Below, one piece after another: positions 4,049 to 50,931 of a stretch of DNA of 54,750 bases (the stretch's first letter is position 1; every line of letters starts with the position of its first letter). Position numbers and translations under genes: made by a program. Source of the stretch: a virus; IMG/VR virus record IMGVR_UViG_3300022562_001966, positions 1 to 54,750 of that record. One strand, given 5' to 3'. The notes under the pieces are model-generated. The model saw only the letters and a program-made list of their open reading frames with translations. It was not told where the DNA came from and searched no databases.

Positions 4049-4285
4049 TTATAAATATCGATAAATTCCGTCTTTTACACAAATGACAGTCGGTTCATAA
4101 ATCGCCTTTAGCATGTTCTTTTTTGATCGACTGATTTTCATTTTTTGACAATTAACCGGAGTGCCATCGACTGTGAACCCACCGGCAAGCTTGATTGAAT
4201 TTCCTGAATCTGGGGCATTCAGCACTTCTCCAACCACTTCACCATACATATTCAACATTGCTGCTCGACCTTGATTGCTTGGCAT
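4049..4285 (-). CDS. Hypothetical small basic protein, 78 aa
   Basis: A small basic protein with GAGAGGAAACAAA before its ATG. It is the first gene after a strong operator-type promoter at 4324-4351, so it should be abundant early. The N-terminal half is Gly- and Asn-rich and the middle is Lys-rich (KMKISRSKK). No domain is recognised. Confidence 0.7.
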   Translation of the reverse strand: MPSNQGRAAMLNMYGEVVGEVLNAPDSGNSIKLAGGFTVDGTPVNCQKMKISRSKKNMLKAIYEPTVICVKDGIYRYL

Positions 4286-4323: not shown

Positions 4324-4351
4324 ATTATAGTCAATTTGCGCTAATTGTCAA
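4324..4351 (-). promoter_or_regulatory. Operator-type sigma70 promoter (site A)
   Basis: On the minus strand, TTGACA (4346-4351) and TATAAT (4324-4329) are perfect consensus boxes, 16 bases apart. The spacer holds the palindrome-like CAATTTG-CG-CTAATTG (plus-strand 4332-4347), a one-mismatch version of the operator at sites D and E. It reads into the 4049-4285 gene. Confidence 0.8.
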
Positions 4352-4365
4352 AGAGAAATTATGAA

Positions 4366-4764
4366 TCAATAGAAAATATTCTCTGGAAACGAAAGCAATC
4401 TAACAAATGATACTTTTTTGATTTCAGTAATCCGCTTTCTTTTTACAAGTTCACAAACGACTTTATGAACTTGCTTTGCTTGCTCAATGTTTGTTGTTCG
4501 ATAACATTGCCTTTGATCAACCCCCCGCCAAATACCGCATCGCTTTGTAAATATCATTGTTTCAAAAATAATCACATCATTGTGCTTATCACGACCATGC
4601 TCAACTGACAGTAACACTGTTGAAATTCGGCATCCGTTGACATAATTTTCAGCCAACTGATTATTCCATTTTGGATATTCCCTTTTGTAATTAAGATAAT
4701 CAATAAAATTAAATGCTTTTATTTCACCGCTTTCATCAAATGTAAAAAACAGTCGATCATCCAT
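4366..4764 (-). CDS. Hypothetical protein, 132 aa
   Basis: The open frame reaches 4806 through TTG codons. The ATG at 4764 is preferred because AAGGA lies ten bases before it. The protein is soluble, with a basic C-terminal half. It is coupled to the upstream 4779-5144 gene. No known domain. Confidence 0.65.
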   Translation of the reverse strand: MDDRLFFTFDESGEIKAFNFIDYLNYKREYPKWNNQLAENYVNGCRISTVLLSVEHGRDKHNDVIIFETMIFTKRCGIWRGVDQRQCYRTTNIEQAKQVHKVVCELVKRKRITEIKKVSFVRLLSFPENIFY

Positions 4765-4778
4765 TAGTGATGATTCCT

Positions 4779-5144
4779 TCAATATTTTAATTTTTTCGGC
4801 AAACAATCCATTTTCTTATTTGCAGATTCAAATATGGCTAAATACTTTTTTGGCACTTTCATATCATTATCAAATTCAGCATCACCAAAATAAGCATGGC
4901 CACGATCAATTAAGCCGTTAGATTCCGAACCGATATCCTTTACTAACACCAATCGTGCAAATACAGGAATTCCAACTTCACTGACTACGGTTCGTTTTGG
5001 CGGCCAAACTTCTGATACTTTTTCCGAGTGTTCATAATCGATAATATCTTGATATTGATCGTCATAACACCACTCACATTTCCATTCGTAACAAGACTTG
5101 ACGCGAATGGAATCTTTAAATTCTTTTGTATTGTATATGCTCAT
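4779..5144 (-). CDS. Hypothetical protein with Cys cluster, 121 aa
   Basis: A 121-residue protein whose start overlaps the stop of the previous gene (TAATGA) behind AAGGG. Near the N-terminus it carries C-x4-C-x2-C (CYEWKCEWC), which could bind a metal, although a fourth ligand is not obvious. The C-terminal tail is basic. Function unknown. Confidence 0.7.
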   Translation of the reverse strand: MSIYNTKEFKDSIRVKSCYEWKCEWCYDDQYQDIIDYEHSEKVSEVWPPKRTVVSEVGIPVFARLVLVKDIGSESNGLIDRGHAYFGDAEFDNDMKVPKKYLAIFESANKKMDCLPKKLKY

Positions 5145-5368
5145 TACCCTTGCGCCTTCTCATATTCTTTAACCAGCTTTTCAGCGTATTTTTTAATCCG
5201 CTCTTTGTATTCAGGTTCATCTGGCACCCAAACACCATAACGCTTCAAACCTTGTTCTTCTCGTCTTGCTTTAAACGCGGTAATCGCTCGTCTGTCTCTT
5301 GCGCGTTTCATTTCCAATTGTTTTGGTGTCAATTCGTCCACTGTGGGAACATATCGCTCGTATGCCAT
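5144..5368 (-). CDS. Small basic protein, possibly ribbon-helix-helix-like
   Basis: A 74-residue basic protein. The stretch LKRYGVWVPDEPEYKERIKK resembles the strand-helix start of RHH or antitoxin-type DNA-binding proteins, where a VxVWVP strand precedes two helices. A basic helix comes before it. The gene follows promoter site B directly. The DNA-binding role is inferred from pattern only. Confidence 0.65.
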   Translation of the reverse strand: MAYERYVPTVDELTPKQLEMKRARDRRAITAFKARREEQGLKRYGVWVPDEPEYKERIKKYAEKLVKEYEKAQG

Positions 5369-5422
5369 TTTGAAGTCTCTCTTTATTTGTTGATGAATTG
5401 TTTATTCAACACTCACTCTAAC

Positions 5423-5451
5423 AGAGTAGGCAATGAGTGCTAATCTGTCAA
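5423..5451 (-). promoter_or_regulatory. Operator-type promoter (site B)
   Basis: On the minus strand, TTGACA (5446-5451) lies 17 bases from TACTCT (5423-5428). The spacer holds CAATGAG-TG-CTAATCT, a diverged copy of the shared operator. It overlaps the 3' end of the 5440-6462 gene and reads into 5144-5368. Confidence 0.65.
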
Positions 5452-6462
5452 ATGATTTAATGTTTCAGGGTTGATATCCTGATTCACACTGGTATCACGA
5501 ACAAACACAATGCGACTGCCAATCGGTTTGTTTTTATGCTCGCCTTTGTAATAGCGTTCATTTATAAGCTGCCGAAAAAACCATCGGCGATAATGCGCTT
5601 TCCGATCACTGTCACTAACCAAATGTTTGCCAACTGTCTGTTTTTGCCATTTGCCGTGATTTAATGGCTCTATGTGTTTTGGCTCTTTTGATTCGGGATA
5701 ACCGCTCTCAATTGCGCCGGGAAAACTTGAGCAATATACCCCCAACATCACAACAAGTCGTGAAATGATGAATTGCAGATGCGAATCTGTTTCTGTTTCT
5801 TTAGACAAATGATCGTATTCGAATTTATTGAATTTACCCAATATTTTTACGTACTCATCATAATTCTGAGATTTCAGCACAGGCAACAATTCACTTTCAG
5901 GAATACAAATTCGTAAAAGTGGCGATACAAGATTGCCGGATTCAACTTTATCCGTGAAATAATTTATTGCTAGGGTTTTATCATTTGCATAATCCCCGCC
6001 GCGATTCATTTTGACTTTGCCAAGTCCTGCTAATTCTGCAAAATTCAGCATGACTTTTTCACGCTCATCTGGCGACATGTAAGAGACCAGCAAACCTTTT
6101 ACTTCTATACCATCGATCGAAAATCCTTTTGGCATCGCCAATATGAATATATCATGCGGCATTTTGAAATGTTCAAGAGTGCTGAAATCGCATTTCGCTT
6201 CATAAAGTGATTTCAGTAATTCAGAACTGGCTGGGAAAATAACATTCCGATCAGAATGGTTGATCCATTGATTTTCCTCCATTAACACAACGGTATCCAT
6301 CGATGGCAATAAATCTTTAACAACATTTGATTTATACAAATAAGTCATTGCCTCTTTATATGCGGCCTTACCTTTTTTCTTGGATTTTTTATTGATGCCT
6401 CGCGTCTTTCGAATGGTTTTTTCCATCGTATCGATAAGCAAAGAATAATAATCGTATTTCAT
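5440..6462 (-). CDS. Conserved-looking phage/mobile-element protein, 340 aa
   Basis: The ATG at 6462 is preferred over the longer frame (to 6546) because AGGA precedes it. The last 60 residues contain HYRRWFFRQLINERYYKG and GSRIVFVRDT, a pattern I associate with proteins of unknown function in phages and integrative elements. A Lys-rich segment lies at about residues 20-35. There is no membrane segment. It is one of the larger early products and its role is unknown. Confidence 0.7.
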   Translation of the reverse strand: MKYDYYSLLIDTMEKTIRKTRGINKKSKKKGKAAYKEAMTYLYKSNVVKDLLPSMDTVVLMEENQWINHSDRNVIFPASSELLKSLYEAKCDFSTLEHFKMPHDIFILAMPKGFSIDGIEVKGLLVSYMSPDEREKVMLNFAELAGLGKVKMNRGGDYANDKTLAINYFTDKVESGNLVSPLLRICIPESELLPVLKSQNYDEYVKILGKFNKFEYDHLSKETETDSHLQFIISRLVVMLGVYCSSFPGAIESGYPESKEPKHIEPLNHGKWQKQTVGKHLVSDSDRKAHYRRWFFRQLINERYYKGEHKNKPIGSRIVFVRDTSVNQDINPETLNHLTD

Positions 6463-6499
6463 AATAGTTTGATCCTGATTTTGTTTATCGCCTATTCCC

Positions 6500-6823
6500 T
6501 CAATCAAGAGGGAATAGGGAATGGAATTTGTTGCGTAAACTTTCAACCATTTTTATTTGTTGCTCGCCAGATTCGTCAAGTAGGGATTGCAAAAATTCCC
6601 TGACAGGCAAATTATAATCGCCATCAACTTCAAATTGAGTCATTAAAACATTGTCGCAATTGACCACCAAGACTGGCTTAAAAAGTCCAGTAAAACCCAT
6701 TTTAAATTCAAGGTTGAATTCTTCACCATTCTTTTCAATTTTTGCAAAATAATGGCGAATATTTTCACCGCGATTAATGTCTTTCAAGTTTTTAACTTTC
6801 ATATATTCTGGCAATTCGATCAT
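6500..6823 (-). CDS. Hypothetical protein, 107 aa
   Basis: The start is set to the ATG at 6823. The longer frame would begin inside promoter site C, whose transcript starts near 6855. The protein is soluble and mixed alpha/beta with no recognised motif. It is the first gene after site C. Confidence 0.65.
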   Translation of the reverse strand: MIELPEYMKVKNLKDINRGENIRHYFAKIEKNGEEFNLEFKMGFTGLFKPVLVVNCDNVLMTQFEVDGDYNLPVREFLQSLLDESGEQQIKMVESLRNKFHSLFPLD

Positions 6824-6860
6824 GGTATTTCTCACTCTTGGTTGTTTTTCACACAATTGA

Positions 6861-6889
6861 AGTATATGCGCTTTGCGCTAATTGTGCAA
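6861..6889 (-). promoter_or_regulatory. Operator-type promoter (site C)
   Basis: On the minus strand, TTGCAC (6884-6889) lies 17 bases from TATACT (6861-6866). The spacer contains the CTAATTG half-site and the same GCGC centre seen at site A. It reads into 6500-6823. Confidence 0.75.
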
Positions 6890-6941
6890 GAGGATACGCA
6901 AGAAATATTTAACTAACTGACTTTGTGGTTTGGAAAGGAAT

Positions 6942-6962
6942 CAGGGGCCATGAAAACCCCTG
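6942..6962 (-). terminator. Possible weak terminator after 6975-7268
   Basis: CAGGGG and CCCCTG form a 6-bp stem around a 9-base loop just downstream of the 6975 stop. The run after it (ATTCCTTT) is only weakly T-rich, so termination may be partial. Confidence 0.4.
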
Positions 6963-6974
6963 TAATCGTTATTC

Positions 6975-7268
6975 TTATTTTCTCATGCGCTTATCGGCTT
7001 TAGGATAAAACGGCGCTGGATCGGCAATGCCATCCCATTGGGCTAGAAAATCAACGGCCTCTTGGTGCGTTCCGAAACAAATACGGCCATTATTCACAAA
7101 GTCTCGATCAAGATCACAGAAAACGCCGACTGTGTATATCATTCGATGTATGCCGTAAAATTTACCATCAATTATGCGTATATGACGATATCCGGCGTGA
7201 AAAAGATGCAGAAATAATGCAAATTCTTCTGGACTAAAATCCTCAGCTTGAGAATCAATAAATTGCAT
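6975..7268 (-). CDS. Hypothetical protein, 97 aa
   Basis: A small protein rich in Phe, His and aromatics in its first half, with a basic tail. The ribosome-binding site is weak. It lies between a possible weak terminator and the three-gene paralogous block. No family is recognised. Confidence 0.6.
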   Translation of the reverse strand: MQFIDSQAEDFSPEEFALFLHLFHAGYRHIRIIDGKFYGIHRMIYTVGVFCDLDRDFVNNGRICFGTHQEAVDFLAQWDGIADPAPFYPKADKRMRK

Positions 7269-7288
7269 ATTAATTGCTCTGGGAATGA

Positions 7289-8278
7289 TTAATGAATAAT
7301 TGGATTCATTTCGGTTTCAGCATCTTGTGATTTTATGGCTCTCTCATAAAGTGTATAGATAATGGTTTCTGTTAAAAATGCAATTGTGCATTTTTCAATA
7401 AATACATCTTTATCTACATTCATTATCTCTGCTAATTCTAATGCAGCATTAATATCATTTTCTTTTATCACATTATGTAGTTTTTCTTTATCATCTTTTG
7501 ACCATGTTTTTATAGTCTTTGTGAAATATGACACCATTCGATTATAGAAAATGGATAATTTATACATGCCAATTGAAAATAACAAAGCTTCTGTATAACC
7601 TGAATTTCTTAATGAAACGCATTTTTTAATACTGTATTCAAGCCGATAATCAAATTCCATTGAGTTAGCCTGTTCTAAATAACCATCCCTTTCAGATTCA
7701 CTCAGACTGATATAGGCGCACTCACCATGATCTTCTATTGATGGGCATTCTTTTGAGAGAAAATATTTATATCCTTCTTTATAATTTTTGTTATCAATGA
7801 AAGTTGCTAAGTCTGGATGCTCTGATTTCAATCTGCCAAGCAACAAATCTTCAACTTCAATCATCTGATTATTGTATAGATTGATATAATTGACAATCTG
7901 AATTAAGAACTGATAACCAAGTTGCAACTTCTTATTTAATACATAATCATTTTCACTATTCTCTAAAATATCTGACAATACATTTATGCTTGGCTCATTA
8001 ATATTTGAATCATTTCTCAGATTCATATCCTCAACAACAAGATCAGCAATTGAATCCCTTGCTTGCCATACCAGAATTTGTTTCTCGAATACTCGATTCA
8101 GTGAAATAAGATCATAAATACATTGCTTGATACCAACGGAATGATTCACTTGCATAAACAGCATAAATCCAGCAATTGGACGACTGATTTTCATATCCTT
8201 TATTCTGTTGTCTATAAATTCTTTTTCACCATCAAGAAATAATTTCGGAATGAGTAATTCTGTATTTTCATTATTCAT
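7289..8278 (-). CDS. Hypothetical helical protein, third gene of a paralogous block
   Basis: A 329-residue, mostly helical protein. The ATG at 8278, behind AAGGAT and overlapping the stop of the previous gene, is chosen over the longer frame. It may share an ancestor with the two genes before it: similar length, helical make-up and a late segment (ALLFSIGMYKLSIFYNRM) that loosely matches their NALGFYYF / SAIGLRFL segments. That match is weak. Function unknown. Confidence 0.7.
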   Translation of the reverse strand: MNNENTELLIPKLFLDGEKEFIDNRIKDMKISRPIAGFMLFMQVNHSVGIKQCIYDLISLNRVFEKQILVWQARDSIADLVVEDMNLRNDSNINEPSINVLSDILENSENDYVLNKKLQLGYQFLIQIVNYINLYNNQMIEVEDLLLGRLKSEHPDLATFIDNKNYKEGYKYFLSKECPSIEDHGECAYISLSESERDGYLEQANSMEFDYRLEYSIKKCVSLRNSGYTEALLFSIGMYKLSIFYNRMVSYFTKTIKTWSKDDKEKLHNVIKENDINAALELAEIMNVDKDVFIEKCTIAFLTETIIYTLYERAIKSQDAETEMNPIIH

Positions 8279-9143
8279 TTTCTGATCCTTTTTGATAAGT
8301 TTCTGCAATTAATTTGTGTTGATTGATTCCTGTAACGTTCAAAATGGCAACCATCAAAAACCATCTTTTCACTTCTCTCTCAATTTGCGCTATTTCTGCT
8401 TGGCTTACATTTGATGTATCTATTACATCTTCATTACAATTGCAGAATCTTTCAAATAGCGGCGGATTGATTTCACCAAAGTAATAAAATCCCAATGCGT
8501 TCGCTACGCCCATTGCGAATTCAGCATTATCCAATATCATGCTTTTCTGAAATGCTTTTGCTTGATGCAATTTAAATTTAGTAGAAAATATTTCATGAAC
8601 CTTTTCGTGATATATATTTTCATTAATCAGCGTCAATTTATTCAGATAGCCATCTGGTTTATATTCAAATCCTCCCATTTTCCAGCGATTGTTATATGCC
8701 CATATTCTTGCTTCCTCTTGACCAAAAGTGTATGCGTCACGAAATTCAGAATTGCTTGCTTTAATTTGATTAATGAATCTGATTAATGTTTTTTTATCAA
8801 GGATAAATCGATCTAAAGCAATTTGATAAGAATCATTGGCTTTTAATGCCTCATAAAATCTTGCTTGTATTTTTCTGCCTTCATCGTCTTTAGGAATCTC
8901 TCCCGCTCTGGAAATAATTACAATAGCCTCTTTAAAGCTTTTCCCACCTGTGATTTCTTCTGATAATTTCTCTAATGTCAGGTTGTTTTCTATCCATCTA
9001 TCCCCTGCCTTTGGCATATTTAATGCCCACAAAACTCCGGCCATGTAATAATATTTGCGGGATAAAAATCCATACGCAAAAGCAGGAACCGCTTTTTCAG
9101 GCAATAATGGCAAGTCAAATTCTGTATCTATATCAATGGTCAT
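8271..9143 (-). CDS. Hypothetical helical protein, paralogue of 9133-10176
   Basis: A 290-residue, mostly helical protein with AGAGGG before the ATG. Two stretches align with the 9133-10176 product: an early GFLSRKYYYMAGVLWALNM segment against GITTDESDFLKGVLYSIGL, and a later QAKA-x(11)-F-x2-G-x3-A-x-G segment. No membrane helix is certain, although both segments are hydrophobic. Start and stop overlap with the neighbours, so the three genes are co-translated. Confidence 0.75.
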   Translation of the reverse strand: MTIDIDTEFDLPLLPEKAVPAFAYGFLSRKYYYMAGVLWALNMPKAGDRWIENNLTLEKLSEEITGGKSFKEAIVIISRAGEIPKDDEGRKIQARFYEALKANDSYQIALDRFILDKKTLIRFINQIKASNSEFRDAYTFGQEEARIWAYNNRWKMGGFEYKPDGYLNKLTLINENIYHEKVHEIFSTKFKLHQAKAFQKSMILDNAEFAMGVANALGFYYFGEINPPLFERFCNCNEDVIDTSNVSQAEIAQIEREVKRWFLMVAILNVTGINQHKLIAETYQKGSENE

Positions 9144-10176
9144 TTCTTTGCCCTCTATTATCTTCTCGATTTTTCACCATCATTGAGAATTCCGCTGCAT
9201 TTAAAGGTTCAATCACTTGATCATCAATGTAATCCTTGGATACTTGTGAAAGGAAATGGAATATGACAGAAAACCGATTTATAAAAATAACGCAATGAAT
9301 ATATTTATTCTCAATCCCAAAGTCTTCAAGTTTTAAATTATCAATAACTTTGTTTGACGATGATAGCCTTTTAATTTCATTAAACTCTTCATCGGATAAT
9401 CTGGCTTTCAAATTTGCATATTTTTTTGCAATTGCTTCAATTGCAGCAATTAAAGGCAGATATAAAAACCTAAGACCAATTGCGCTGCAAAAACCAATAT
9501 TAAACGGACTAACATTATGCAGAGGATTTTTTAACAACCCGCTTGCTTTCGCTTGATCCAGTTCAAATTCTTTGATAAAAGCAAGAGCCTTTGAATTGTA
9601 ATTTTCGCCCAATAATATATTCATTTTCAAAACCAATTCGCCATCAAAAGCATGGTCGCATTCATAATAATCTTCATCTTTCCCTGAATCTAAATCTTTT
9701 AATATCTTTTGCCTGAAATTCATGGCACTGAATGATGCCAATTCAACCCAATTCTCTCTTGATTTACATATTCTTTCCATAAATACATTGAAGCCTTCTG
9801 AGAACAAACATAAAGCAAACACGCATTTATCAGCCAGTTCGCAATTGTCTTTGATCCACTCAATTTCATCTGATTGCTCCAAGCTTGCAATGGATTTTAT
9901 TAATTTGGCTAATTCTTTGTCATCAATTTGCGGATTTGCTTTTCTTGCTGTTTTTTTAATCTCACTCTCTGCAACCAAGTACCCATCTGTTAAAGATTTC
10001 AGACCTATGGAATACAGCACGCCTTTTAAAAAATCACTTTCATCTGTCGTAATTCCAATGGCAATGGCTCTTATTAAATAATCATTAAGCGTTATTGTTT
10101 GTATCCTCATTAGTTGTAATGATGCAACGCCATCATCATAAATGTGAAATAATTTCTTTTTGTCAGATTCATTCAT
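9133..10176 (-). CDS. Hypothetical helical protein, paralogue of 8271-9143
   Basis: A 347-residue, mostly helical protein with AGGT ahead of the ATG. It carries the same two conserved stretches as the 8271-9143 product (G-x7-F-x2-GVLY near residue 50; QAKA followed by a Gly-rich hydrophobic helix near residue 205). The C-terminal tail is basic. It probably arose by local duplication. No known family is recognised. Confidence 0.75.
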   Translation of the reverse strand: MNESDKKKLFHIYDDGVASLQLMRIQTITLNDYLIRAIAIGITTDESDFLKGVLYSIGLKSLTDGYLVAESEIKKTARKANPQIDDKELAKLIKSIASLEQSDEIEWIKDNCELADKCVFALCLFSEGFNVFMERICKSRENWVELASFSAMNFRQKILKDLDSGKDEDYYECDHAFDGELVLKMNILLGENYNSKALAFIKEFELDQAKASGLLKNPLHNVSPFNIGFCSAIGLRFLYLPLIAAIEAIAKKYANLKARLSDEEFNEIKRLSSSNKVIDNLKLEDFGIENKYIHCVIFINRFSVIFHFLSQVSKDYIDDQVIEPLNAAEFSMMVKNREDNRGQRNDH

Positions 10177-10191
10177 TATCTAATACCTATG

Positions 10192-10488
10192 CTATCTGTT
10201 AGTTGATTTTCTATTTAACATCACTTGCCATAATAAACTGACAATAAATACTATTTGGTAGAATGCGATTTCACATGCAATCTCATTTATGAATTTCCAG
10301 AATTCATGCTGCAAATCTGAAGTAATCACAGCAACAAATAACAAAATGGCCAAATCTCTTTTAATTGGCCGAAAACAAAATGACAAAATATCAGGTTCTT
10401 TCCAAGCCCTTAAATTGAAAAACACACAGGCAAGACCAACAATCAAAATACCAAACCAGTGAAAATCAAATATCCAAAACTCAATCAT
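10192..10488 (-). CDS. Small membrane protein, 98 aa
   Basis: About three hydrophobic helices are visible: residues 3-25, 46-58 and 74-92. Charged loops lie between them and a basic tail ends the protein. It is an inner-membrane protein by composition and the only clear multi-pass membrane protein of the early operon. It could act on host membrane processes or superinfection, but nothing in the sequence decides this. Confidence 0.65.
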   Translation of the reverse strand: MIEFWIFDFHWFGILIVGLACVFFNLRAWKEPDILSFCFRPIKRDLAILLFVAVITSDLQHEFWKFINEIACEIAFYQIVFIVSLLWQVMLNRKSTNR

Positions 10489-10496
10489 GGCTTAAT

Positions 10497-10841
10497 CTAA
10501 AATTTCATTTTTATAGTTAACGGATGTTCATCACTGGGCCTGACCTCAATGTATATTCTGCCATTGGCAAGAATGATTAAATGATCAACCATAAATGGAT
10601 CATTCGTCCATTGCTTCCCATCGGCATTAAAACAAAGATCATCAATAGAATTGCATTCCCCTCTTCTCGCCTTTAAATTAACTTGCAGCATTAATTGCAA
10701 GACAAGGGGCCACACTTCATCTAGTCGTTGTTTCTTTAATGCGCTATTTTCAATGCAATATTCCAGCAAAGTGACAACATTAAATTCATTTAGAATCAAT
10801 ATTTCTGATTCATTGAATTCCAATTTCGAATAATCAATCAT
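10497..10841 (-). CDS. Hypothetical protein, 114 aa
   Basis: The ATG at 10841 is chosen because AAGGCG precedes it and it overlaps the end of the upstream gene. The protein is soluble with a helical N-terminal half and a strand-rich C-terminal half (HLIILANGRIYIEVRP). No domain is recognised. Confidence 0.65.
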   Translation of the reverse strand: MIDYSKLEFNESEILILNEFNVVTLLEYCIENSALKKQRLDEVWPLVLQLMLQVNLKARRGECNSIDDLCFNADGKQWTNDPFMVDHLIILANGRIYIEVRPSDEHPLTIKMKF

Positions 10842-11133
10842 TGTATTCGCCTTTGTTGTCAACAAATTTGTGAAATCCATTATTTTCAATCATTGATTTT
10901 GCTGAGGATAAAACTTCACCTATTATTTGTGGGTTACAATTGCTTAATACTGATAAAACTTGATCGTAATTATCTGGATCAAATGTGACCAATATCTGGC
11001 CAACATGAATATCTTTTTTCTGCAAACTTTCATCAAGTTTAATGAATTGCTTTTTTAATACTTTTTCATATCGTTTGAATTCTGCATCGACTGTAAAATC
11101 ATTGGCATTAGTGAAATCCGGTTTTCCTTTCAT
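10834..11133 (-). CDS. Hypothetical protein, 99 aa
   Basis: A helical, Lys/Asp-rich soluble protein with AAAGGTTAAATT before the ATG, the same leader seen at the integrase. It overlaps both neighbours by a few bases. Function unknown. Confidence 0.65.
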   Translation of the reverse strand: MKGKPDFTNANDFTVDAEFKRYEKVLKKQFIKLDESLQKKDIHVGQILVTFDPDNYDQVLSVLSNCNPQIIGEVLSSAKSMIENNGFHKFVDNKGEYND

Positions 11134-11756
11134 AATTTAACCTTTATTTTAATTTGCTTACGTCCAGTAAAAATATGGTTCAACGCCGATACAGGGATAT
11201 CCCACCCTTCCACATTCATCTGCTTCAGTAAAATTTTAAAGCGATTCGGTTTTGGCATTTTAATTAATAAATCGTCTAGATGTTGTTCGCCTAACTCGTG
11301 GTGATTAAGCCAAAACAAAACAGCTTCACGCCATGCTTGTTCGTAACCATAATAGCTAATTGAAAATAACTTATCTGATTTACCATGCCCTCGACTGACA
11401 CAAAATCCTACTCGATAATATTCATATCCCTTGTACCTCTCTTTTCTATCAACTGCAATTTTCATCATAATGCCTGATATGCCTGTTGTTCCTTCTTCTC
11501 TGGCATGAGGCGAATGATCAGCAATCAATTTTGCGGCCTTTTTAGCTTCAACTTGTTGCGCTTTTAATTGCTTATCTATTGAAATAGCTTTATTTATGAA
11601 TTTGTTTTGCTGAGTCAGTGATATGAATTCATTTATATTCTTGCTTTTCCTGAATGAAAAATACTTTTGATACAATTTCCCTGCAATCGATCTGGCTACT
11701 CTTACACCGATAAAATTCGCAGGATGATCGCCATCGTTGTAAATATATACGGCCAT
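11130..11756 (-). CDS. AP2-like DNA-binding protein (tentative)
   Basis: A 208-residue basic protein. The segment at about 100-155 (G-Y-EYYRVGFCVSRGHGKS, FSISYYGYEQAWREA) has the three-strand plus amphipathic-helix layout of the AP2 domain, with the typical YG-x-EA motif. An N-terminal GVRVARSIAGKLYQKYFSF segment could be a second, weaker copy. AP2 domains in phages occur in DNA-binding proteins, often with HNH nucleases; no HNH motif is present here. The role is inferred. Confidence 0.65.
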   Translation of the reverse strand: MAVYIYNDGDHPANFIGVRVARSIAGKLYQKYFSFRKSKNINEFISLTQQNKFINKAISIDKQLKAQQVEAKKAAKLIADHSPHAREEGTTGISGIMMKIAVDRKERYKGYEYYRVGFCVSRGHGKSDKLFSISYYGYEQAWREAVLFWLNHHELGEQHLDDLLIKMPKPNRFKILLKQMNVEGWDIPVSALNHIFTGRKQIKIKVKL

Positions 11757-11797
11757 GCTTTAACCCCATCAAACCAATTAATATTCATCTGCATCGA

Positions 11798-12085
11798 TTA
11801 ATTAATCTTGACCTCTTCATGATATGGTTGAATTTTATACTTAGGTCTTTTCAATTGCGTTAATAATCCTTCCAGTGTTTTTATTGCCTGATCTCTGGAA
11901 AGATTAGAAATGTATGAAAATTGCTTGTCTCCATCAACATAAGGGAAAGTTGCCAGCAAAAAACCAATCCTCTCTTGGCCGGTTTCTTTCTTTAATAAAT
12001 CATGTATTGATCCCCCCAGAGGTTCTATTAATTTACTCAATACAATTTCCAATTCATGTTGATTCAAATCTTTTGTATTCGACAT
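11798..12085 (-). CDS. Hypothetical protein, 95 aa
   Basis: A small soluble helical protein with a strong GAGGTGAG ribosome-binding site. It contains FSYISNLSRDQAIKTLEGLL, a helix often seen in small phage proteins of unknown function. No catalytic motif is visible. Confidence 0.65.
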   Translation of the reverse strand: MSNTKDLNQHELEIVLSKLIEPLGGSIHDLLKKETGQERIGFLLATFPYVDGDKQFSYISNLSRDQAIKTLEGLLTQLKRPKYKIQPYHEEVKIN

Positions 12086-12096
12086 TATCTCACCTC

Positions 12097-12471
12097 TTAA
12101 ACCATGAAATTTGGCGGCCTCTGGCAGAAATCATTAGTTCCAAATTTCCGCCATAAATGCAAAGTATAGGGATGGTTATTTACATAATCCGATTTAGGTG
12201 GATGAAATTGAATCACCAAATCATCATCATCCCAAAACTGCTCTTTAATAAATTGCATTTCATCCCAAGTCGGTGTTCGATTTAATAACGTTGATGTGCT
12301 GACATGCTCCCATCCAAAACCATCTGAAGCGATGCAAATTAAATGAATGGTGCGGCCTGATTTTCTCAATCTATATGGAATACGAAACATGCCATTATTA
12401 CCATAAGATTCATGACTGCTGTAAGCACCGGCTTTTTTCAGCCGGTATTTTTCTTTTACTCTAAATGCCAT
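12097..12471 (-). CDS. Conserved phage protein of unknown function, 124 aa
   Basis: The middle and end carry RTPTWDEMQFIKEQFW, then a QFHPP segment and a NNHPYTLHLWR segment. I recognise this as the signature of a small family conserved across many phages (DUF7694-like from memory). The spacing of W, H and HPP residues suggests a compact enzyme or binding fold, but no activity is known to me. Confidence 0.75.
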   Translation of the reverse strand: MAFRVKEKYRLKKAGAYSSHESYGNNGMFRIPYRLRKSGRTIHLICIASDGFGWEHVSTSTLLNRTPTWDEMQFIKEQFWDDDDLVIQFHPPKSDYVNNHPYTLHLWRKFGTNDFCQRPPNFMV

Positions 12472-12472
12472 T

Positions 12473-13102
12473 TTATTCAGTATCCTTTTTTTCTTCTTTT
12501 TTTACTCTGTATTTTTCAATGAATTTGTCCATATTTTCAATTACCAAAAAGCTGCCATTTTCCTGTATCTGATATTTCAAATCTGGATATTTTTTCAGGA
12601 TTAATGTAATCAAATAACTTCCAGCCAGACAATATCTGGTAAAAATAGTTAACCACCGCTTTACTTCCATGCACAATTCATGTGCTTTTTGCAATTCTTC
12701 AAGATGATCAATAAAATCAGTATCGAAAAAATTTTTCGAGGTTAATTGCTCTTCACTCATTTTATAATAAGGATGGTTTTGTAATTCTTTATTCTTACGA
12801 ATAACTTTGGATCGAAAATACATAAAACCAGAAACAAATTCTTCTAAACCAATTCCAAATAATTTGTTTTGCAAATCGCCAAATCTATCCATTTCCATTT
12901 GCTCAAGTAAATACTGGCATTCCGGCTTGTTATCGAAATATTGAATTGCTACTTCTATTTTATCCAGCATTTCCATAAAAAATGGATCTATTTGAATATC
13001 AGAGATAAATTCCCTCGTTAAAACTTCTCTATCAACAAATGAATCTTTTATCGTTTCTTTCATGTTATTTAATATTTTTTGTGCTGTTTCTTTGCTTTTC
13101 AT
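12473..13102 (-). CDS. Hypothetical helical protein, 209 aa
   Basis: The ATG at 13102, behind a strong AGGAGAAT, replaces the longer frame. The protein is mostly helical and charged, with a hydrophobic stretch (YCLAGSYLITLIL) in its last third that could be one membrane segment or a buried helix. The Lys/Glu-rich tail resembles a flexible end. No family is recognised. Confidence 0.7.
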   Translation of the reverse strand: MKSKETAQKILNNMKETIKDSFVDREVLTREFISDIQIDPFFMEMLDKIEVAIQYFDNKPECQYLLEQMEMDRFGDLQNKLFGIGLEEFVSGFMYFRSKVIRKNKELQNHPYYKMSEEQLTSKNFFDTDFIDHLEELQKAHELCMEVKRWLTIFTRYCLAGSYLITLILKKYPDLKYQIQENGSFLVIENMDKFIEKYRVKKEEKKDTE

Positions 13103-13112
13103 AATTATTCTC

Positions 13113-13379
13113 CTATCGCAAAACCAATCCTGCATTGATCAATAATAACCGCCATTCTGCATAACCGATTACAGAACCGGCTTTAACGCAATCACCAATA
13201 GATTGCTCTGTCCATCGTTGCACAGTTCGAATTGAGCAACCTGTGATTCTGGAAACATCTTCATTTGACCATCCCGCCCAATCTAGCAACCACAACACCT
13301 GATCTGTTCTTGGTGGCAACCAATCCTCCCCTCTTGCCATGCTTGGCCATATTAATTCTGTAATTTCTTTTTTGTTCAT
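13113..13379 (-). CDS. Helix-turn-helix protein, likely transcriptional regulator
   Basis: An 88-residue protein with a strong GGAAGGA ribosome-binding site. Residues 31-56 (WAGWSNEDVSRITGCSIRTVQRW) form a clear HTH. YAEWRLLLINAGL follows, the typical continuation in a family of small phage and plasmid DNA-binding proteins. It is a candidate for binding the shared operators of this region or for activating late genes. This is inference from the motif. Confidence 0.75.
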   Translation of the reverse strand: MNKKEITELIWPSMARGEDWLPPRTDQVLWLLDWAGWSNEDVSRITGCSIRTVQRWTEQSIGDCVKAGSVIGYAEWRLLLINAGLVLR

Positions 13380-13401
13380 ATTTCATCCTTCCTTGATTGA
13401 G

Positions 13402-13872
13402 TTAAGAAACAATCCTCTGAAAAGTTGAATTAATAAAGTGCAATTTCACAATCCGCTCAAATGTATCAATTTTGACCGAATGGCTATAGGAATTATTTAG
13501 CTGCCTGATTATGGGGACAATGTATTTCAAACCATGTAAAACCAACTCTGCTTCTTTGCCTGAATCTCTCAATCTGGCCATCTTAATCTGGTTATTTTTA
13601 AATGATGAATTATTAAGAATGCTCATTTGATTCTGGTTAAAATAAATACTCAAAGCTTCGATATACGTTAATGGCGTCGTTATATCTGCCGGAATAATTC
13701 GTATAAACCACCCCATTTGAAATTTACCCTCTGTCACTTTTATTCTGCATAATTCAAATAGAAAAAACCGTTGATTGAATATTTTCACAAGATTGATCAT
13801 TCTGGTTGTATGATCAATTCTGGATTCAAAATGAAAGCTTAAATTTGATTGAAATATAGGATTGTAAGTCAA
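13402..13872 (-). CDS. Hypothetical protein, 156 aa, TTG start
   Basis: No ATG lies near the beginning. GAGGT sits eight bases before a TTG at 13872, right at the stop of the upstream gene, so TTG is the probable start. The protein is basic and mixed alpha/beta. It belongs to a row of three similar-sized unknown proteins (13402-14777). No domain is recognised. Confidence 0.6.
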   Translation of the reverse strand: MTYNPIFQSNLSFHFESRIDHTTRMINLVKIFNQRFFLFELCRIKVTEGKFQMGWFIRIIPADITTPLTYIEALSIYFNQNQMSILNNSSFKNNQIKMARLRDSGKEAELVLHGLKYIVPIIRQLNNSYSHSVKIDTFERIVKLHFINSTFQRIVS

Positions 13873-13873
13873 C

Positions 13874-14296
13874 TTATTGAACCTCAATCATGAAAGGCTC
13901 ATCCTCTTCATTTCTGTAGATGGATAATTGTTGAGCAAAAGGTAATTTATCTTTGAGAATTTGGATCAGTAAATTTGAGCGTATGCCATGCTTATGTTCA
14001 TTTAGATCAACCAATATCAACATATAAATATGCTGGATAAAAAAATTCTCTAATCCAGCTAAGTTGTCCTTCATAAACATGAGAGTTAGATAATTAAGTT
14101 GGCAATCTTCAATAATCTTAACGGATTGTTTTTTTCTTAAAGGATTTTTCATATCCGTAAATGCCCATTCTCCAATGCTTGTACTGTATTTAAAATGAGC
14201 AAAATTATAATGTATAAGTTGAATTTTAAATTCATCAATCAACCCATTCACATTCTCTTTAACATCGACATTGATATTCAGCTTAAAATCATCCAT
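13874..14296 (-). CDS. Hypothetical protein, 140 aa
   Basis: The ATG at 14296 behind AGGA is preferred. The protein is soluble, with long hydrophobic helical segments (FIQHIYMLILVDL) and a C-terminal EEDEPFMIEV end. Unknown function, coupled to both neighbours. Confidence 0.65.
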   Translation of the reverse strand: MDDFKLNINVDVKENVNGLIDEFKIQLIHYNFAHFKYSTSIGEWAFTDMKNPLRKKQSVKIIEDCQLNYLTLMFMKDNLAGLENFFIQHIYMLILVDLNEHKHGIRSNLLIQILKDKLPFAQQLSIYRNEEDEPFMIEVQ

Positions 14297-14306
14297 TGAA
14301 ATTGTC

Positions 14307-14777
14307 CTATGCAATGAGTTTTTTACCTTTTGAATCTTTGTAACCCCTGATTATTATTTTTGTATAATCAAGAATCTCATCTTTATTGAATTCAATTGAA
14401 GTTATGAAATACGCAATATTTCTAGCAATATTTAAAGCATCAATTTCTCTATGGAATCGGTTTTTGCCAAATAGATTATAAATAAAAATGAATACCTCAA
14501 ATTCCTTGAATTCCCTGTGCGAATACAATCTGACCTTTAAATTAGGAACAAACCAAGACCTGTTTCTAACGAATGCCATCCAATAGTTTTCGCCAGTTAC
14601 ATTTAACCTGATAAACAAGATTTGAACACTGCCATCTGACACCAAAATATGGGTTACTCTTTTATTGGCCTCTTCTACTGAAAAGTAGATTTGAGTATTA
14701 ACTATATTTTCTGGCGAATTTCTGATCTCAACATCTTGCGTCTTTACCAGAGACAATCGTATAGATTTATTTTTCAT
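14307..14777 (-). CDS. Hypothetical protein, 156 aa
   Basis: A basic protein that is strand-rich in its first half and helical in its second. The ribosome-binding site is weak and lies in the gap after the helicase gene, which argues for coupled translation with the helicase. No known motif. Confidence 0.65.
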   Translation of the reverse strand: MKNKSIRLSLVKTQDVEIRNSPENIVNTQIYFSVEEANKRVTHILVSDGSVQILFIRLNVTGENYWMAFVRNRSWFVPNLKVRLYSHREFKEFEVFIFIYNLFGKNRFHREIDALNIARNIAYFITSIEFNKDEILDYTKIIIRGYKDSKGKKLIA

Positions 14778-14789
14778 TGTGATTCATCT

Positions 14790-16373
14790 TCATCCATGAA
14801 CAACATTCATATATTTGCCATTACGCTTCACGGTTATTTCAATCCCATCACCAAGCGATACAAAACGACCAGTTTGGATTAATGCCTGATCAACACTGGT
14901 TGGAATTATTTTTGCCTCCGAATCAATAAAGCGTTTCCACCAATGGACGACATGCATTCTTGCTCTTGGATTTTCGATTGCTATCCATTCTTTTGCGATT
15001 TCTTTCAAGCCTCGAAAATAAGTTACCTGCAAAGTGGTTTGCTTTCTCTGCCATTTCTTTAAATGCAATTCAGTTACCCTTTCTTTCTTTGGCTGACTTT
15101 TAAAGCTTAATAATTCCGCTGTATCCGCCTTTGGCATGTGTTTTGGAGTGCTTTCGAATTCAAATTCATAACCGCACGCGCATTCTCTGATTGATGGATG
15201 CTGCATGGCTTTGCAGATTGGGCAACGCTTCTCTGGGCAATTATCGGAGTTTTCGCCATTTGATTTCTTTCGTTTGGGCGCTTCAATCGTATCAATCGGG
15301 CCATGCTCTGCTGTATTGCCACCAAAATCCAATACAAGGCAATTCTCCTTGCCCTCGAATAATCGCATTCCTCTGCCAAGAATCTGCATCCATAAACAAC
15401 TGGACATTGTTTTACGCAATACAGCAATTAAATCCAGATTCGGGATATCCACCCCTGTTGTCAAAACATCACAATTGGTCAAAAAATCCAACTGGCCTGA
15501 CTTTATTGCATTAAGATAATTTTGCCTTTCAGCTTTTGAGGTTTTGCCTGTTATAGTTTCAACTCTGAATTTCATCTGCCTGAGACATTCAGCGACTTTA
15601 AATGCGTGTTCGATGCCGGAACAAAAAATTAGCCCTGCATTCCGACCGTTAAAATGATCAGCAATCTCATTACATGCCGATTTCAGTAATCCATCCTCGC
15701 TGAATATTTTCTGCATGACAGACTTGTTATAATCCCAGCCTGATTTATCCAAAGAATCAGTATTAAATAGGGTTTCAGTCGGCTTAGGAATCAATGGAGC
15801 AAGAAATCCCCGCTCAATCAACGTGCGAATTTTAATTTCGTAACAGATATCGGTGAACAATGAGCCTTCATCGATCAAATGGCCGGAATCCAAGCGCCAA
15901 GGCGTAGCAGAAAAGCCGATCACTTTTAATCTGGGATTGATGTTCAGCATGGCATCAATCAATTTATGATACATGCCAATGCCTTTAGGATTGAGTAAGT
16001 GGCATTCATCGATCAGGATTAAGTCCCTTTTCCCTAAAATATCTGGTTGCCTGAAAACCGTTTGTACACTGCAAAACAGAATGTTGTTATCGGTATCCCG
16101 TCTGTTAAGTGAAGCTGCATTAATCCCTGCATTCGCTTCAGGCCACACGCTGATTAATTTGTCGTGGTTTTGCTCAACCAGTTCTTTAACATGCGTGACA
16201 ATCAAAATACGCTGGTTGCAATATTGCTGCAACACTTTTTCGGCAAACAATGCAATGATTATGGATTTCCCCGCACCTGTGGGCGCTATGACAATCGGGT
16301 TGCCTGTTCTGTGAGCAAAATATTTGTAAATTGAATTTACAGCATCAAGTTGATAATCTCTGGCCTGAATCAA
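14790..16373 (-). CDS. SF2 DEAD/DEAH-type helicase
   Basis: A 527-residue superfamily 2 helicase of the UvrB/SSL2-like type used by many phages in replication or recombination. Visible motifs, in order, are motif I APTGAGKS (about residue 30), motif II DECH, motif III SATP, a TTGVDIP motif V and QILGRGMRL as motif VI. After the helicase core, C-x2-C-x9-C-x-C (CPICKAMQHPSIRECAC) forms a zinc ribbon, followed by a basic C-terminal region. The start is a TTG, the only suitable codon, with AAGGA eight bases upstream. It follows promoter site F and is the only clear replication-type enzyme in the window. Confidence 0.93.
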   Translation of the reverse strand: MIQARDYQLDAVNSIYKYFAHRTGNPIVIAPTGAGKSIIIALFAEKVLQQYCNQRILIVTHVKELVEQNHDKLISVWPEANAGINAASLNRRDTDNNILFCSVQTVFRQPDILGKRDLILIDECHLLNPKGIGMYHKLIDAMLNINPRLKVIGFSATPWRLDSGHLIDEGSLFTDICYEIKIRTLIERGFLAPLIPKPTETLFNTDSLDKSGWDYNKSVMQKIFSEDGLLKSACNEIADHFNGRNAGLIFCSGIEHAFKVAECLRQMKFRVETITGKTSKAERQNYLNAIKSGQLDFLTNCDVLTTGVDIPNLDLIAVLRKTMSSCLWMQILGRGMRLFEGKENCLVLDFGGNTAEHGPIDTIEAPKRKKSNGENSDNCPEKRCPICKAMQHPSIRECACGYEFEFESTPKHMPKADTAELLSFKSQPKKERVTELHLKKWQRKQTTLQVTYFRGLKEIAKEWIAIENPRARMHVVHWWKRFIDSEAKIIPTSVDQALIQTGRFVSLGDGIEITVKRNGKYMNVVHG

Positions 16374-16405
16374 AGCGACATTCCTTGTCTCAGTGTGATT
16401 CAGTA

Positions 16406-16434
16406 AAAATAGGTGAATTGGCGTGAATTGTCAG
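16406..16434 (-). promoter_or_regulatory. Operator-type promoter (site F)
   Basis: On the minus strand, CTGACA (16429-16434) lies 17 bases from TATTTT (16406-16411). The plus-strand sequence GAATTGG-CG-TGAATTG matches the pattern of site A with a few changes. It reads into the helicase. Confidence 0.5.
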
Positions 16435-16442
16435 ATTTAACT

Positions 16443-16643
16443 TTATTCGAAATCTTCTAAATATATTGCTCGTCTGCAAATATCGCTTTTAACGATCAAA
16501 ACATAACCGATTGAATATGGATCAGAATTACATTGTTGGAAATGGTCAATTGCTTCCTTTTTACTTAATGTTCTGCCTTGATATTTACCTTCTCCCCTGC
16601 CATCAACTGAACTCCCGCCAAATAACAGATACCAGTTCTCCAT
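16443..16643 (-). CDS. Hypothetical protein, 66 aa
   Basis: A small protein with a run of seven G in its ribosome-binding region (AAGGGGGGG) five bases before the ATG. It has a Gly-rich N-terminal loop (FGGSSVDGRGEGKYQG) and a helix. Function unknown. The G-run is a possible spot for sequencing error but lies outside the coding frame. Confidence 0.6.
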   Translation of the reverse strand: MENWYLLFGGSSVDGRGEGKYQGRTLSKKEAIDHFQQCNSDPYSIGYVLIVKSDICRRAIYLEDFE

Positions 16644-16657
16644 CTTACCCCCCCCTT

Positions 16658-16936
16658 CTATTGAATAAAATTTGCAATTAATTTTTCGGCTTTCTTTGTG
16701 CGTTTTAAAGCTTGCGTGAAATGTCGTTTGTGTTGCCCCTTAGTTTTGACGATAACAACTTTGATTAAACCATCGTTTTCATTAACCCAAACCTGAATCA
16801 TTCTTCTGCTGACATTCAGATTTTCAATCAAATCGCAGATTAGAACTGGTTTAGAACATGCCAATAAAATTGCAAGCCTTTGCATTGTAATTTTATTCTC
16901 AATCAATCTTTTTACATCCAGTTCCGTCACAATCAT
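16658..16936 (-). CDS. Winged-helix/HTH-like protein, 92 aa
   Basis: A basic small protein. Residues about 20-60 (LAILLACSKPVLICDLIENL then NVSRRMIQVWV) fit an HTH with a following strand pair (LIKVVIVKTKG). The tail is Lys- and Arg-rich. It is probably a DNA-binding regulator of the early region. Confidence 0.65.
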   Translation of the reverse strand: MIVTELDVKRLIENKITMQRLAILLACSKPVLICDLIENLNVSRRMIQVWVNENDGLIKVVIVKTKGQHKRHFTQALKRTKKAEKLIANFIQ

Positions 16937-16995
16937 ATTTTAAATTTCCCTATTCAGCCTTAATTAAATTAACCCTATAAAACCCTTCAAACCCT

Positions 16996-17020
16996 ACTAG
17001 CCGGTTACTTACCGGCTAGT
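16996..17020 (-). terminator. Hairpin terminator-like element after 17005-17193
   Basis: A perfect 10-bp stem (ACTAGCCGGT / ACCGGCTAGT) with a 5-base loop spans the stop codon of the 17005-17193 gene. On the minus strand it is followed by AGGGTTTGAAGGGTTTT. The stem is strong but the T-run is interrupted, so termination may be partial. Confidence 0.5.
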
Positions 17021-17193
17021 TCCGCATCATGTGCGGCTGTTGAGTGAGTGTGGCCAGCCCAACAATGGCCACACTTTGAGTTGTACCCGCTGGGGTACAT
17101 TTTGTGGATGGGGCTTGTATCGCCCCCATCCTTGCGCCAAACGCGGTAGGTTTGGCCATCGGAACCTGTGTATTTTTCGGCTTGGATTGTCAT
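17005..17193 (-). CDS. Small Cys/His-rich protein, 62 aa
   Basis: A 62-residue protein with AGAGG before the ATG. It contains C-x2-C followed by H-x-H and another H (CGHCWAGHTHSTAAHD), a plausible small zinc-binding site. The N-terminal half resembles a short beta hairpin. It lies directly before the hairpin at 16996-17020. Function unknown. Confidence 0.65.
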   Translation of the reverse strand: MTIQAEKYTGSDGQTYRVWRKDGGDTSPIHKMYPSGYNSKCGHCWAGHTHSTAAHDAELAGK

Positions 17194-17206
17194 GATTGGT
17201 TGCCTC

Positions 17207-17407
17207 TTAAAAAATGGTTTTGATTCCGGCTTGATGTAACTGGTTCTTTATGTGTTCTGGCAAATCAAAAACACCATCATAATCAACAACCGCTCTCGAT
17301 TCCAAATCAATGATTATAATTCCACCATAGCTGAGATCCTCGTGATACCATTCAGCTTTTGTTTGTCGCAATTGAATCGTTTCGCTACTCTTTGCAGATA
17401 ATTTCAT
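17207..17407 (-). CDS. Hypothetical protein, 66 aa
   Basis: The frame is open to 17479, but promoter site D (17439-17466) would start its transcript near 17432. The ATG at 17407, behind GAGGTG, is therefore the likely start. A strand-rich protein (GGIIIIDLESRAVVDYDG). No known family. Confidence 0.65.
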   Translation of the reverse strand: MKLSAKSSETIQLRQTKAEWYHEDLSYGGIIIIDLESRAVVDYDGVFDLPEHIKNQLHQAGIKTIF

Positions 17408-17438
17408 TTTGCACCTCGCATGTGATTTGATAAACTTA

Positions 17439-17466
17439 ATAATACTACAATTAGAGCTAATTGCAA
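17439..17466 (-). promoter_or_regulatory. Operator-type promoter (site D) with perfect palindrome
   Basis: On the minus strand, TTGCAA (17461-17466) lies 16 bases from TATTAT (17439-17444). The spacer holds the perfect 7-2-7 palindrome CAATTAG-AG-CTAATTG at 17448-17463. It is identical to site E over the operator and the -35 box. Confidence 0.75.
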
Positions 17467-17475
17467 GTGATTTTC

Positions 17476-18375
17476 TCAATTTAATTTTGATGGTCGCTTA
17501 CCAAAAGCGAAATAGGCATCGCCCTCTTTTGGCTCCAAAGTGGCTTTGAAAGCGATATGAAGCTTTTTGGCGCTGGATAATTCCAGAACCCCGTCATCAT
17601 CGCGAACCATTGATTCTTTCAAGCCTTTAGGTGCTGATACCCATACCTTAAAACCGCGCTTATCAATGAACAGAATTTTAAGCGTATTCACAAAACGGCC
17701 ATATCCGTCGTGCGCTGCGTGCCATTTTGCTGCCAAAACATACCCATCTAAGCTTATTCGTCCTGTGGTTGCTGGCTGTTTATTCGCTTCCAGAGACTTA
17801 ACAAATGAATCCCAATCATTCCGATCATTAATTTTGGCTTGAACTTTAATAACGGCGCTGGCTTGTTTTTCAGTCAACTCTTCACCGCCAAATGCCTTTT
17901 GACGAATGTCATTCATGAAATCCATATCCCCTTCATACTGACCCAATGCGGCCATTGCTTCAGGATATCGGCGCTCATTGATGGCTTTCACTTCATCCTT
18001 ACGCGCATCTTTTGCGGCCTGTTCTGCCACCTGTTTTTCCATGCGCTTTGCCTCTGCTCTGGCTTGCGCTTTTTCTCTGTTGATGTTCAATTTTTCCAGC
18101 TTTTCCGCTGAATACAGCTTGCATGGACGATAACCCATAAAGCCACTGCCACCACATTTATAACAAGTGTATCCAGTGAAAATCCACTTATCAGCACCAC
18201 CTGCACCACCGCACCGTGAACACGGAATAGCGAGTTGAATGCTGGCCTCATTGTCGTTTTTTACAACAAAAGGCTTGGCAAAATATGGGATATTGCGAGT
18301 GATCATCATTTTGCTATCCATTTTCATGCCACTTCGCAGAAACCAGTCTTTCTTTGCAGTAGATGAATTTTCCAT
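17476..18375 (-). CDS. Zinc-finger protein with DnaJ-like CxxCxGxG motifs
   Basis: A 299-residue protein starting at the ATG at 18375 (AGGG upstream). The longer frame would run into promoter site E. Two CxxCxGxG-type motifs (CSRCGGAGG and CYKCGGSG), about 20 residues apart, form a DnaJ-like zinc-binding module near residues 45-80. A long Lys/Ala/Glu-rich helix at about 90-150 follows, then a mixed C-terminal domain. As the first gene of the leftward early transcript, it may be a single-strand-DNA, replication or host-takeover factor. No enzymatic motif is seen. Confidence 0.7.
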   Translation of the reverse strand: MENSSTAKKDWFLRSGMKMDSKMMITRNIPYFAKPFVVKNDNEASIQLAIPCSRCGGAGGADKWIFTGYTCYKCGGSGFMGYRPCKLYSAEKLEKLNINREKAQARAEAKRMEKQVAEQAAKDARKDEVKAINERRYPEAMAALGQYEGDMDFMNDIRQKAFGGEELTEKQASAVIKVQAKINDRNDWDSFVKSLEANKQPATTGRISLDGYVLAAKWHAAHDGYGRFVNTLKILFIDKRGFKVWVSAPKGLKESMVRDDDGVLELSSAKKLHIAFKATLEPKEGDAYFAFGKRPSKLN

Positions 18376-18406
18376 GATTTTGCCCTCGCTATTTGTGTAT
18401 AAATTA

Positions 18407-18435
18407 ATCTTAGGATCAATTAGAGCTAATTGCAA
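18407..18435 (-). promoter_or_regulatory. Main leftward early promoter (site E) with perfect palindrome
   Basis: On the minus strand, TTGCAA (18430-18435) lies 17 bases from TAAGAT (18407-18412). The operator CAATTAG-AG-CTAATTG at 18417-18432 overlaps the -35 box and spacer. It is the most upstream promoter of the minus-strand early block and faces the plus-strand lysozyme/integrase side, the place expected for a lysogeny-control operator. Confidence 0.75.
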
Positions 18436-19245: not shown

Positions 19246-19396
19246 ATTTCCACACCCCATTGATTTGCGCCTATAGTGTCACCATCTAGCTTAAAATGCA
19301 CTCTTTTTTTTAGTTTGGTGTCATTTAAAGGATTGCTTTATGATACTTTATAAAGCTAATTGATGCTTTATGAGGCTTTTAAAAGCATTATAGATA

Positions 19397-21087: not shown

Positions 21088-21123
21088 TTGCCAAGAGCTA
21101 TCTTTACACTATAAGATAGCTCT
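21088..21123 (+). promoter_or_regulatory. Promoter with built-in 11-bp inverted repeat
   Basis: TTGCCA (21088-21093) lies 16 bases from TATAAG (21110-21115). A perfect inverted repeat (AGAGCTATCTT at 21094-21104, AAGATAGCTCT at 21113-21123) fills the spacer and covers the -10 box. This is a textbook layout for a repressed or autoregulated promoter feeding the 21150 gene. Confidence 0.6.
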
Positions 21124-21149
21124 AAATGATAACTACATATCGCTTGGCA

Positions 21150-21755
21150 ATGACTATGGAAATGAAAAGCTCAAAATATAAGCACCCTGATTTTGCACCT
21201 AAATCTATATCCAAAATCACCTTCATCATCTTATCCCATCTTCAAAACACAAATAGCTCAACTTTGAATGAATTCAAAGAGCATAAAGAAGTTCAAAAAT
21301 TAGCCGATTCTTATATTCTATCTAAGACCCTGTCTAACATGCATCAACAAGGCTATTTAATGAAGCAAAATGGTGGCGCTTATAGAAGAAATCCCAATTT
21401 CACATTAGATAAAAGAGGCAAAATAGTCATTGAATCAGTAAATACCGGAATGACCTCTGTTGTTGAAGGCAAGATAAAACCAAAATCCAAAACATTAGCG
21501 AGCAAATCAAAATCCACCGCCAAAAAAAAGAAATCTAAATCCCTGCAAAAACCCCCCTCTTCTGATCTTCAAATCTCCAAACAAGAACAAACCGCTGAAC
21601 TTGATCCAGAACAAATACAACTCGAAATGTATCTTTCAGAAGATGCGAGAGCCTTTGTAAATAATGCTCAAATTATGATCCAAGAAAATTCAGCATACCG
21701 AAAAGCCTTAATCGATATTCACGGCTTGATAGGACGACTATTGAATTTAAAATAA
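21150..21755 (+). CDS. Probable winged-HTH regulator with basic linker
   Basis: A 201-residue protein. The first 95 residues (SISKITFIILSHLQ, SKTLSNMHQQGYLMKQNGGAY, FTLDKRGKIVI) fit a winged helix, with a recognition helix and a Gly-containing wing. A Lys/Ser-rich linker at about 105-150 and a helical acidic C-terminus follow. The start is uncertain: the frame is open from 21126, but the promoter at 21088-21115 leaves little leader, so ATG 21150 is used. It is a candidate lysogeny regulator. Confidence 0.65.
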   Translation: MTMEMKSSKYKHPDFAPKSISKITFIILSHLQNTNSSTLNEFKEHKEVQKLADSYILSKTLSNMHQQGYLMKQNGGAYRRNPNFTLDKRGKIVIESVNTGMTSVVEGKIKPKSKTLASKSKSTAKKKKSKSLQKPPSSDLQISKQEQTAELDPEQIQLEMYLSEDARAFVNNAQIMIQENSAYRKALIDIHGLIGRLLNLK

Positions 21756-21803
21756 ATATTTAGCAGTAGAAGTCAAACCACTCAACATTAAGGACAATTG
21801 ATC

Positions 21804-50826: not shown

Positions 50827-50861
50827 TTTTCATTCCATAAAAAATAGCTCACGTCAAAAAT

Positions 50862-50879: not shown

Positions 50880-50931
50880 TTTGTAAAGCCATGCAACACT
50901 TATCTAGTCATTCACAAAACGGGAAAGGAAA

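Follow-up and report, generated by a model that had tools for sequence, protein, structure and literature searches.

An operator-like site shared by at least four, and probably six, early promoters of an unclassified siphovirus-like phage

The window analysed here is the whole of IMG/VR record IMGVR_UViG_3300022562_001966, a linear DNA of 54,750 bp without end repeats. The phage is taxonomically unclassified. Its integrase and HK97-type terminase mark it as probably temperate and siphovirus-like. Portal, capsid and tail genes lie on the minus strand. As in temperate phages, a tyrosine integrase gene is present together with an AlpA/excisionase-like gene (Table 1); from these genes we infer lysogeny, and a repressor is thus expected in this phage. 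The terminase large subunit is split over two frames near 54570 (54452-54750 and 53314-54570), either because the contig is in error or because the frameshift is real, and its N-terminus runs past the end of the record; its homologue L010 is uninterrupted (590 aa). Repeats of about 120 bp are found at 28360-28660, within a gene (25710-30605) encoding a 1631-aa protein.

Table 1. Positions of promoters, operator-like sites and selected genes in the window.
Feature	Position	Strand	Description
Promoter A	4324-4351	minus	TTGACA-16-TATAAT; site 4332-4347, CAATTAGCGCAAATTG, 1 mismatch; upstream of gene 4049-4285
Promoter B	5423-5451	minus	TTGACA-17-TACTCT; site 5431-5446, AGATTAGCACTCATTG, 3 mismatches; upstream of gene 5144-5368
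Promoter C	6861-6889	minus	TTGCAC-17-TATACT; site 6869-6884, CAATTAGCGCAAAGCG, 3 mismatches; upstream of gene starting at 6825
Promoter F	16406-16434	minus	CTGACA-17-TATTTT; site 16415-16430, CAATTCACGCCAATTC, 4 mismatches, weakest; upstream of helicase gene
Promoter D	17439-17466	minus	TTGCAA-16-TATTAT; site 17448-17463, CAATTAGCTCTAATTG, perfect; upstream of gene starting at 17408
Promoter E	18407-18435	minus	TTGCAA-17-TAAGAT; site 18417-18432, CAATTAGCTCTAATTG, perfect; upstream of gene 17476-18375
Helicase	14790-16373	minus	phrog_16, E 1e-98
92-aa winged-helix-like protein	16658-16936	minus	D operon; alternative candidate; HTH_11 E 0.02, MJ223 E 0.087, both weak
Lysozyme	starts 18553	rightward	
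Tyrosine integrase	19428-20789	plus	marks the phage as probably temperate
AlpA/excisionase-like gene	20877		
30-bp dyad	21094-21123	plus	AGAGCTATCTT-N8-AAGATAGCTCT; two AGAGCTA copies; candidate diverged seventh site
Favoured repressor candidate	21126-21755	plus	starts at 21126 or 21150; possible winged helix
114-aa possible HTH protein	21798-22142	plus	downstream of the 21126 gene; weaker candidate; no firm family match
Terminase large subunit, HK97-type	53314-54570		

As listed in Table 1, the 16-17-bp spacers of six sigma70-type promoters each hold a 16-base site that overlaps the end of the -35 box. An earlier note had described these sites as copies of CAATTAG-N2-CTAATTG lying between or over the -35 and -10 boxes on the minus strand, and every coordinate was verified. 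Its account of the individual copies was borne out as well: D and E are perfect and identical, A departs by one mismatch, and B, C and F are diverged. An early gene, with a sequence resembling a ribosome-binding site, directly follows each promoter, and promoter A matches the sigma70-type consensus at 12 of 12 positions. The six sites share a single orientation. Their minus-strand consensus, CAATTAGCNCWAATTG, has C at base 8 in all six cases, a position falling inside the "N2" of the earlier note; given this C, the set as a whole is not truly symmetric. Sites D and E have 20 nt in common (CTTGCAATTAGCTCTAATTG), with unrelated flanks. In site C, the half on the -35 side is perfect and the opposite half is broken. 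Site F reads GTGAATTG-GC-GTGAATTG on the plus strand, nearer a direct repeat than a dyad, and is the least secure of the six.

What the sequence shows directly is where the sites lie and that they are not random. Allowing at most one mismatch, three sites were observed against none in 60 third-order simulations; allowing up to three, the window contained 13 against 5.6 +/- 2.7 in shuffles. With a matrix built from A, D and E, site C ranks next. Leave-one-out ranks among 109,500 positions were 10 for C, 47 for F and 54 for B, so that B and F are indistinguishable from background in a genome-wide matrix scan. When the -35 and -10 hexamers were held fixed and only the spacer letters were shuffled, P values were 0.00055 for B, below 5e-5 for C and 0.0016 for F. 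The six sites score between 10.5 and 21.7 bits, and in the late-region gaps scanned nothing on the minus strand exceeded 8.2 bits. Altogether, A, C, D and E exceed chance by a wide margin, and B and F also exceed it once their promoter position is taken into account; a shared 16-base repressor-like site is present in four early promoters at minimum and probably in six.

The same scan (matrix from A, D and E) upheld the expectation that strong sites would be confined to promoters, with the reservation that chance matches do occur in coding DNA (8381, 11347 and 33557). The match at 8381, which reaches 15 bits, was rejected as an operator: it lies within a coding sequence and showed no promoter boxes on inspection. 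Additional full copies had been proposed near the lysozyme gene (18488) and the integrase gene (19355). Both turned out to be half-sites only (CAATTAG, GCTAATTG) and were discarded as operators. The one at 19355 falls within att/excision-like repeats; here, at 19335-19371, overlapping inverted repeats (GCTTTATGATACTTTATAAAGC, ATAAAGCTAATTGATGCTTTAT) precede the integrase gene and contain the operator half-site GCTAATTG. They are perhaps an att arm or excisionase sites.

Several copies of one operator-like motif thus stand at separate promoters, as in a dispersed-operator regulon, and a regulon of this type under a phage repressor, a kind of circuit already known, appears to be the best reading of the sequence. 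We put at roughly 0.7 the probability that a single phage-encoded repressor uses the sites as its operators and would thereby silence the early promoters separately. In the lysogen, a repressor dimer would occupy the 16-bp near-palindrome that lies between the two promoter boxes and overlaps them, thereby blocking RNA polymerase. The leftward early genes, with the helicase gene behind promoter F among them, would then be shut off operon by operon, with no single master switch. Since D and E are perfect dyads and A is nearly so, tight control is predicted at these promoters; C would come next, and B and F would be held more weakly. Counting against this proposal, the record is linear and breaks within the terminase gene, so the repressor gene could sit in the missing sequence.

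A lead to the repressor came from the core of the perfect sites. Across the 54.75 kb, AGAGCTA has only four copies: one each in D and E and one in each arm of the dyad at 21094-21123. This dyad sits on a promoter-like sequence, TTGCCA (21088)-16-TATAAG, directly before the rightward 21126/21150 gene, which adjoins the integrase and AlpA-like genes. The 9-mer TAGCTCTAA is present three times in the window (D, E and 21117). Sharing of these words with D and E suggests that the same regulator acts on the 21126/21150 gene; were that gene autoregulated, its product would be the repressor. On this basis the product is the most likely candidate, predicted to autoregulate through a diverged double operator core in its own promoter. 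The identification is tentative, with the odds leaning somewhat against it, and the core-word comparison, made post hoc, is a lead and not proof. The dyad could instead act as an RNA hairpin (z -4.4). In the collections searched, the protein has no detectable homologue. Profile comparison gives a weak winged-helix hint (Stf76, E 0.57), and a single-sequence AlphaFold model of low confidence (pLDDT 39) has a helix-helix-helix-strand-strand order.

Three proteins, starting at 21804, 21150 and 13113, had been proposed earlier as possible binders. The 21150 protein gains independent support from its own promoter, which holds the only other AGAGCTA copies, but nothing specific emerged for the other two. 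Gene 13113-13379 encodes an 88-aa protein with a sigma70 region 4-like HTH (Pfam Sigma70_r4_2, above cut-off). Searches for a repressor by homology (tblastn, Pfam, PHROGs, NCBIfam, PDB, gammaproteobacterial genomes) returned nothing firm, and no CI/Cro match was found in profile scans of the regulator candidates; single-sequence AlphaFold models had pLDDT values of 39-46. The repressor is possibly novel. A fuller version of the proposal, which we regard as rather unlikely to hold in all its parts, is that a repressor of an undescribed family (21126/21150) autoregulates through the double-core operator of 30 bp and, by means of one symmetric operator per spacer, silences six or more separate early operons, early genes being released on induction in an order set by a graded affinity (highest at D, E and A, lower at C, lowest at B and F).

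Other explanations can be set against a regulon of this kind. The pattern may be partly illusory, with D, E, A and C forming a real repeated promoter element and B and F being ordinary sigma70 promoters in which TTGACA followed by an AT-rich spacer mimics a half-site. The low ranks of B and F when left out of the matrix speak for this, as does the direct-repeat character of F; the spacer-shuffle P values, with the promoter boxes fixed, and the invariant C kept in both sites speak against it, and we consider it unlikely, though deserving attention. Less probable still is that the sites serve a lytic, Cro-like autoregulator that turns early promoters down later in infection. The best candidate for such a protein is the product of 16658-16936, expressed from promoter D, within whose operon it lies; this product may be Cro-like, and in N15-type phages Cro and the prophage repressor both use such operators (PMC4488713). 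However, the winged-helix matches are weak, and the core is shared outside D and E only in the 21126 promoter, which is not specific to 16658. This explanation is moreover compatible with the action of a prophage repressor, as both proteins could share the sites.

We judge it improbable that the sites are bound by a host transcription factor, for example a repressor resembling MarR or LexA, so that the state of the host would gate the early phage genes. Dyads of this size suit many repressors of hosts, host sites are indeed employed by phages such as P1, in which P2coi has an annotated LexA site, and homology searches gave no firm match to a phage repressor. Yet a text search of the literature for the motif letters brought up no such host motif, and a site used so densely, at six early promoters in a single phage, points rather to a phage-encoded protein. 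The least probable explanation is that the sites bind an activator turning the early promoters on. MerR-type activators use dyads located in spacers, but require these to be overlong (19-20 bp); the spacers here measure 16-17 bp and the -35 and -10 boxes are already good (12 of 12 in A), so this mode is unlikely. Because spacer length is already optimal and the sites overlap the footprint of RNA polymerase, repression is far likelier than activation.

The proposed dispersed-operator regulon has its nearest parallel in phage P1, where the C1 repressor has 22 dispersed operators per genome, with the 17-bp sequence ATTGCTCTAATAAATTT (PMC8546580). In both phages the operators are many and scattered, and in P1coi and P2ref the C1 operator lies between -35 and -10, as do the six sites here (PMC8546580). 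The core GCTCTAAT is common to the C1 consensus, D and E, and 12 nt of E (GCTCTAATTGAT) recur in P1 Oref. This resemblance may be due to chance; C1 operators are asymmetric, whereas D and E are perfect dyads. A matrix built from seven annotated C1 operators failed to retrieve the six sites, which ranked from 27 to about 2400 among some 109,500 positions, and neither phmmer nor blastp gave a significant match to C1, Lxc or Coi among all ORFs of the window. The P1 system itself was rejected on these grounds: the layout would work like that of P1, but the tests for belonging to a P1-type system failed.

Cluster A mycobacteriophages (L5/Bxb1) also combine one repressor with many genome-wide sites oriented with transcription; however, their 20-30 sites are asymmetric, mostly lie outside promoters and stop elongation, whereas about six are present here, all in promoters (PMC6550527). 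Stoperators of that sort, which call for many asymmetric sites in transcribed regions, were rejected, strong sites being found here only in promoters. N15 and phiKO2 control early promoters through a set of about five related palindromes, three OR and two OL operators, but these are clustered at two loci, in contrast to one site per promoter over 14 kb (PMC4488713). Small dyad operators overlapping early promoters recall OL and OR of lambda CI/Cro; tandem tripartite operators, a divergent cI/cro pair and, among the proteins scanned, a CI-like protein are all absent. A lambda-type switch was rejected, as there was no CI/Cro profile match and promoter E, divergent from the lysozyme gene, has a single site. 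The earlier note rightly contrasted the layout with the two operators of lambda, but P1 and cluster A mycobacteriophages provide existing examples of dispersed operators.

No relative found carries the operator. Megablast against phages gave no match, and no close relative was present in the collections searched; viral contigs for the most part have just one gene or a few in common with the phage, at roughly 30-56% identity. None of these contigs contained the operator, which leaves the sites without a phylogenetic footprint. The exact operator-promoter pattern was absent from the viral contigs. A looser pattern matched 119 of them, almost all with near-identical flanks resembling conserved coding stretches, and no window protein was shared with these 119 contigs. 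The text search mentioned above found the motif letters nowhere in the literature. A phrog_7839 protein (12097-12471), to which no function is assigned, is common to otherwise mostly unrelated phage contigs, at about 44-61% identity.

If the proposed regulon is correct, a single phage protein could silence numerous early operons together, much in the manner of the P1 repressor, and an HK97-type siphovirus would join P1 in having a dispersed-operator layout. For an orphan temperate phage with regulatory proteins unlike anything in the searched databases, the analysis provides a concrete, testable map of the proposed regulon and names a candidate repressor. It also illustrates how, where homology fails, core words shared with operator dyads in promoter spacers can by themselves lead to the gene of a repressor.

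Two other dyads were observed near promoters. At 50860-50887, a dyad (AATACAATATGTTGTATT) occupies the spacer separating TTTACA from TATTAT; a small leftward ORF follows downstream, ahead of gene 50160-50729. Downstream of the terminase, a different perfect palindrome, CTTGCAACGTTGCAAG (53274-53289), covers the -35 box of the promoter for gene 52678-53193, possibly a separately regulated accessory gene.
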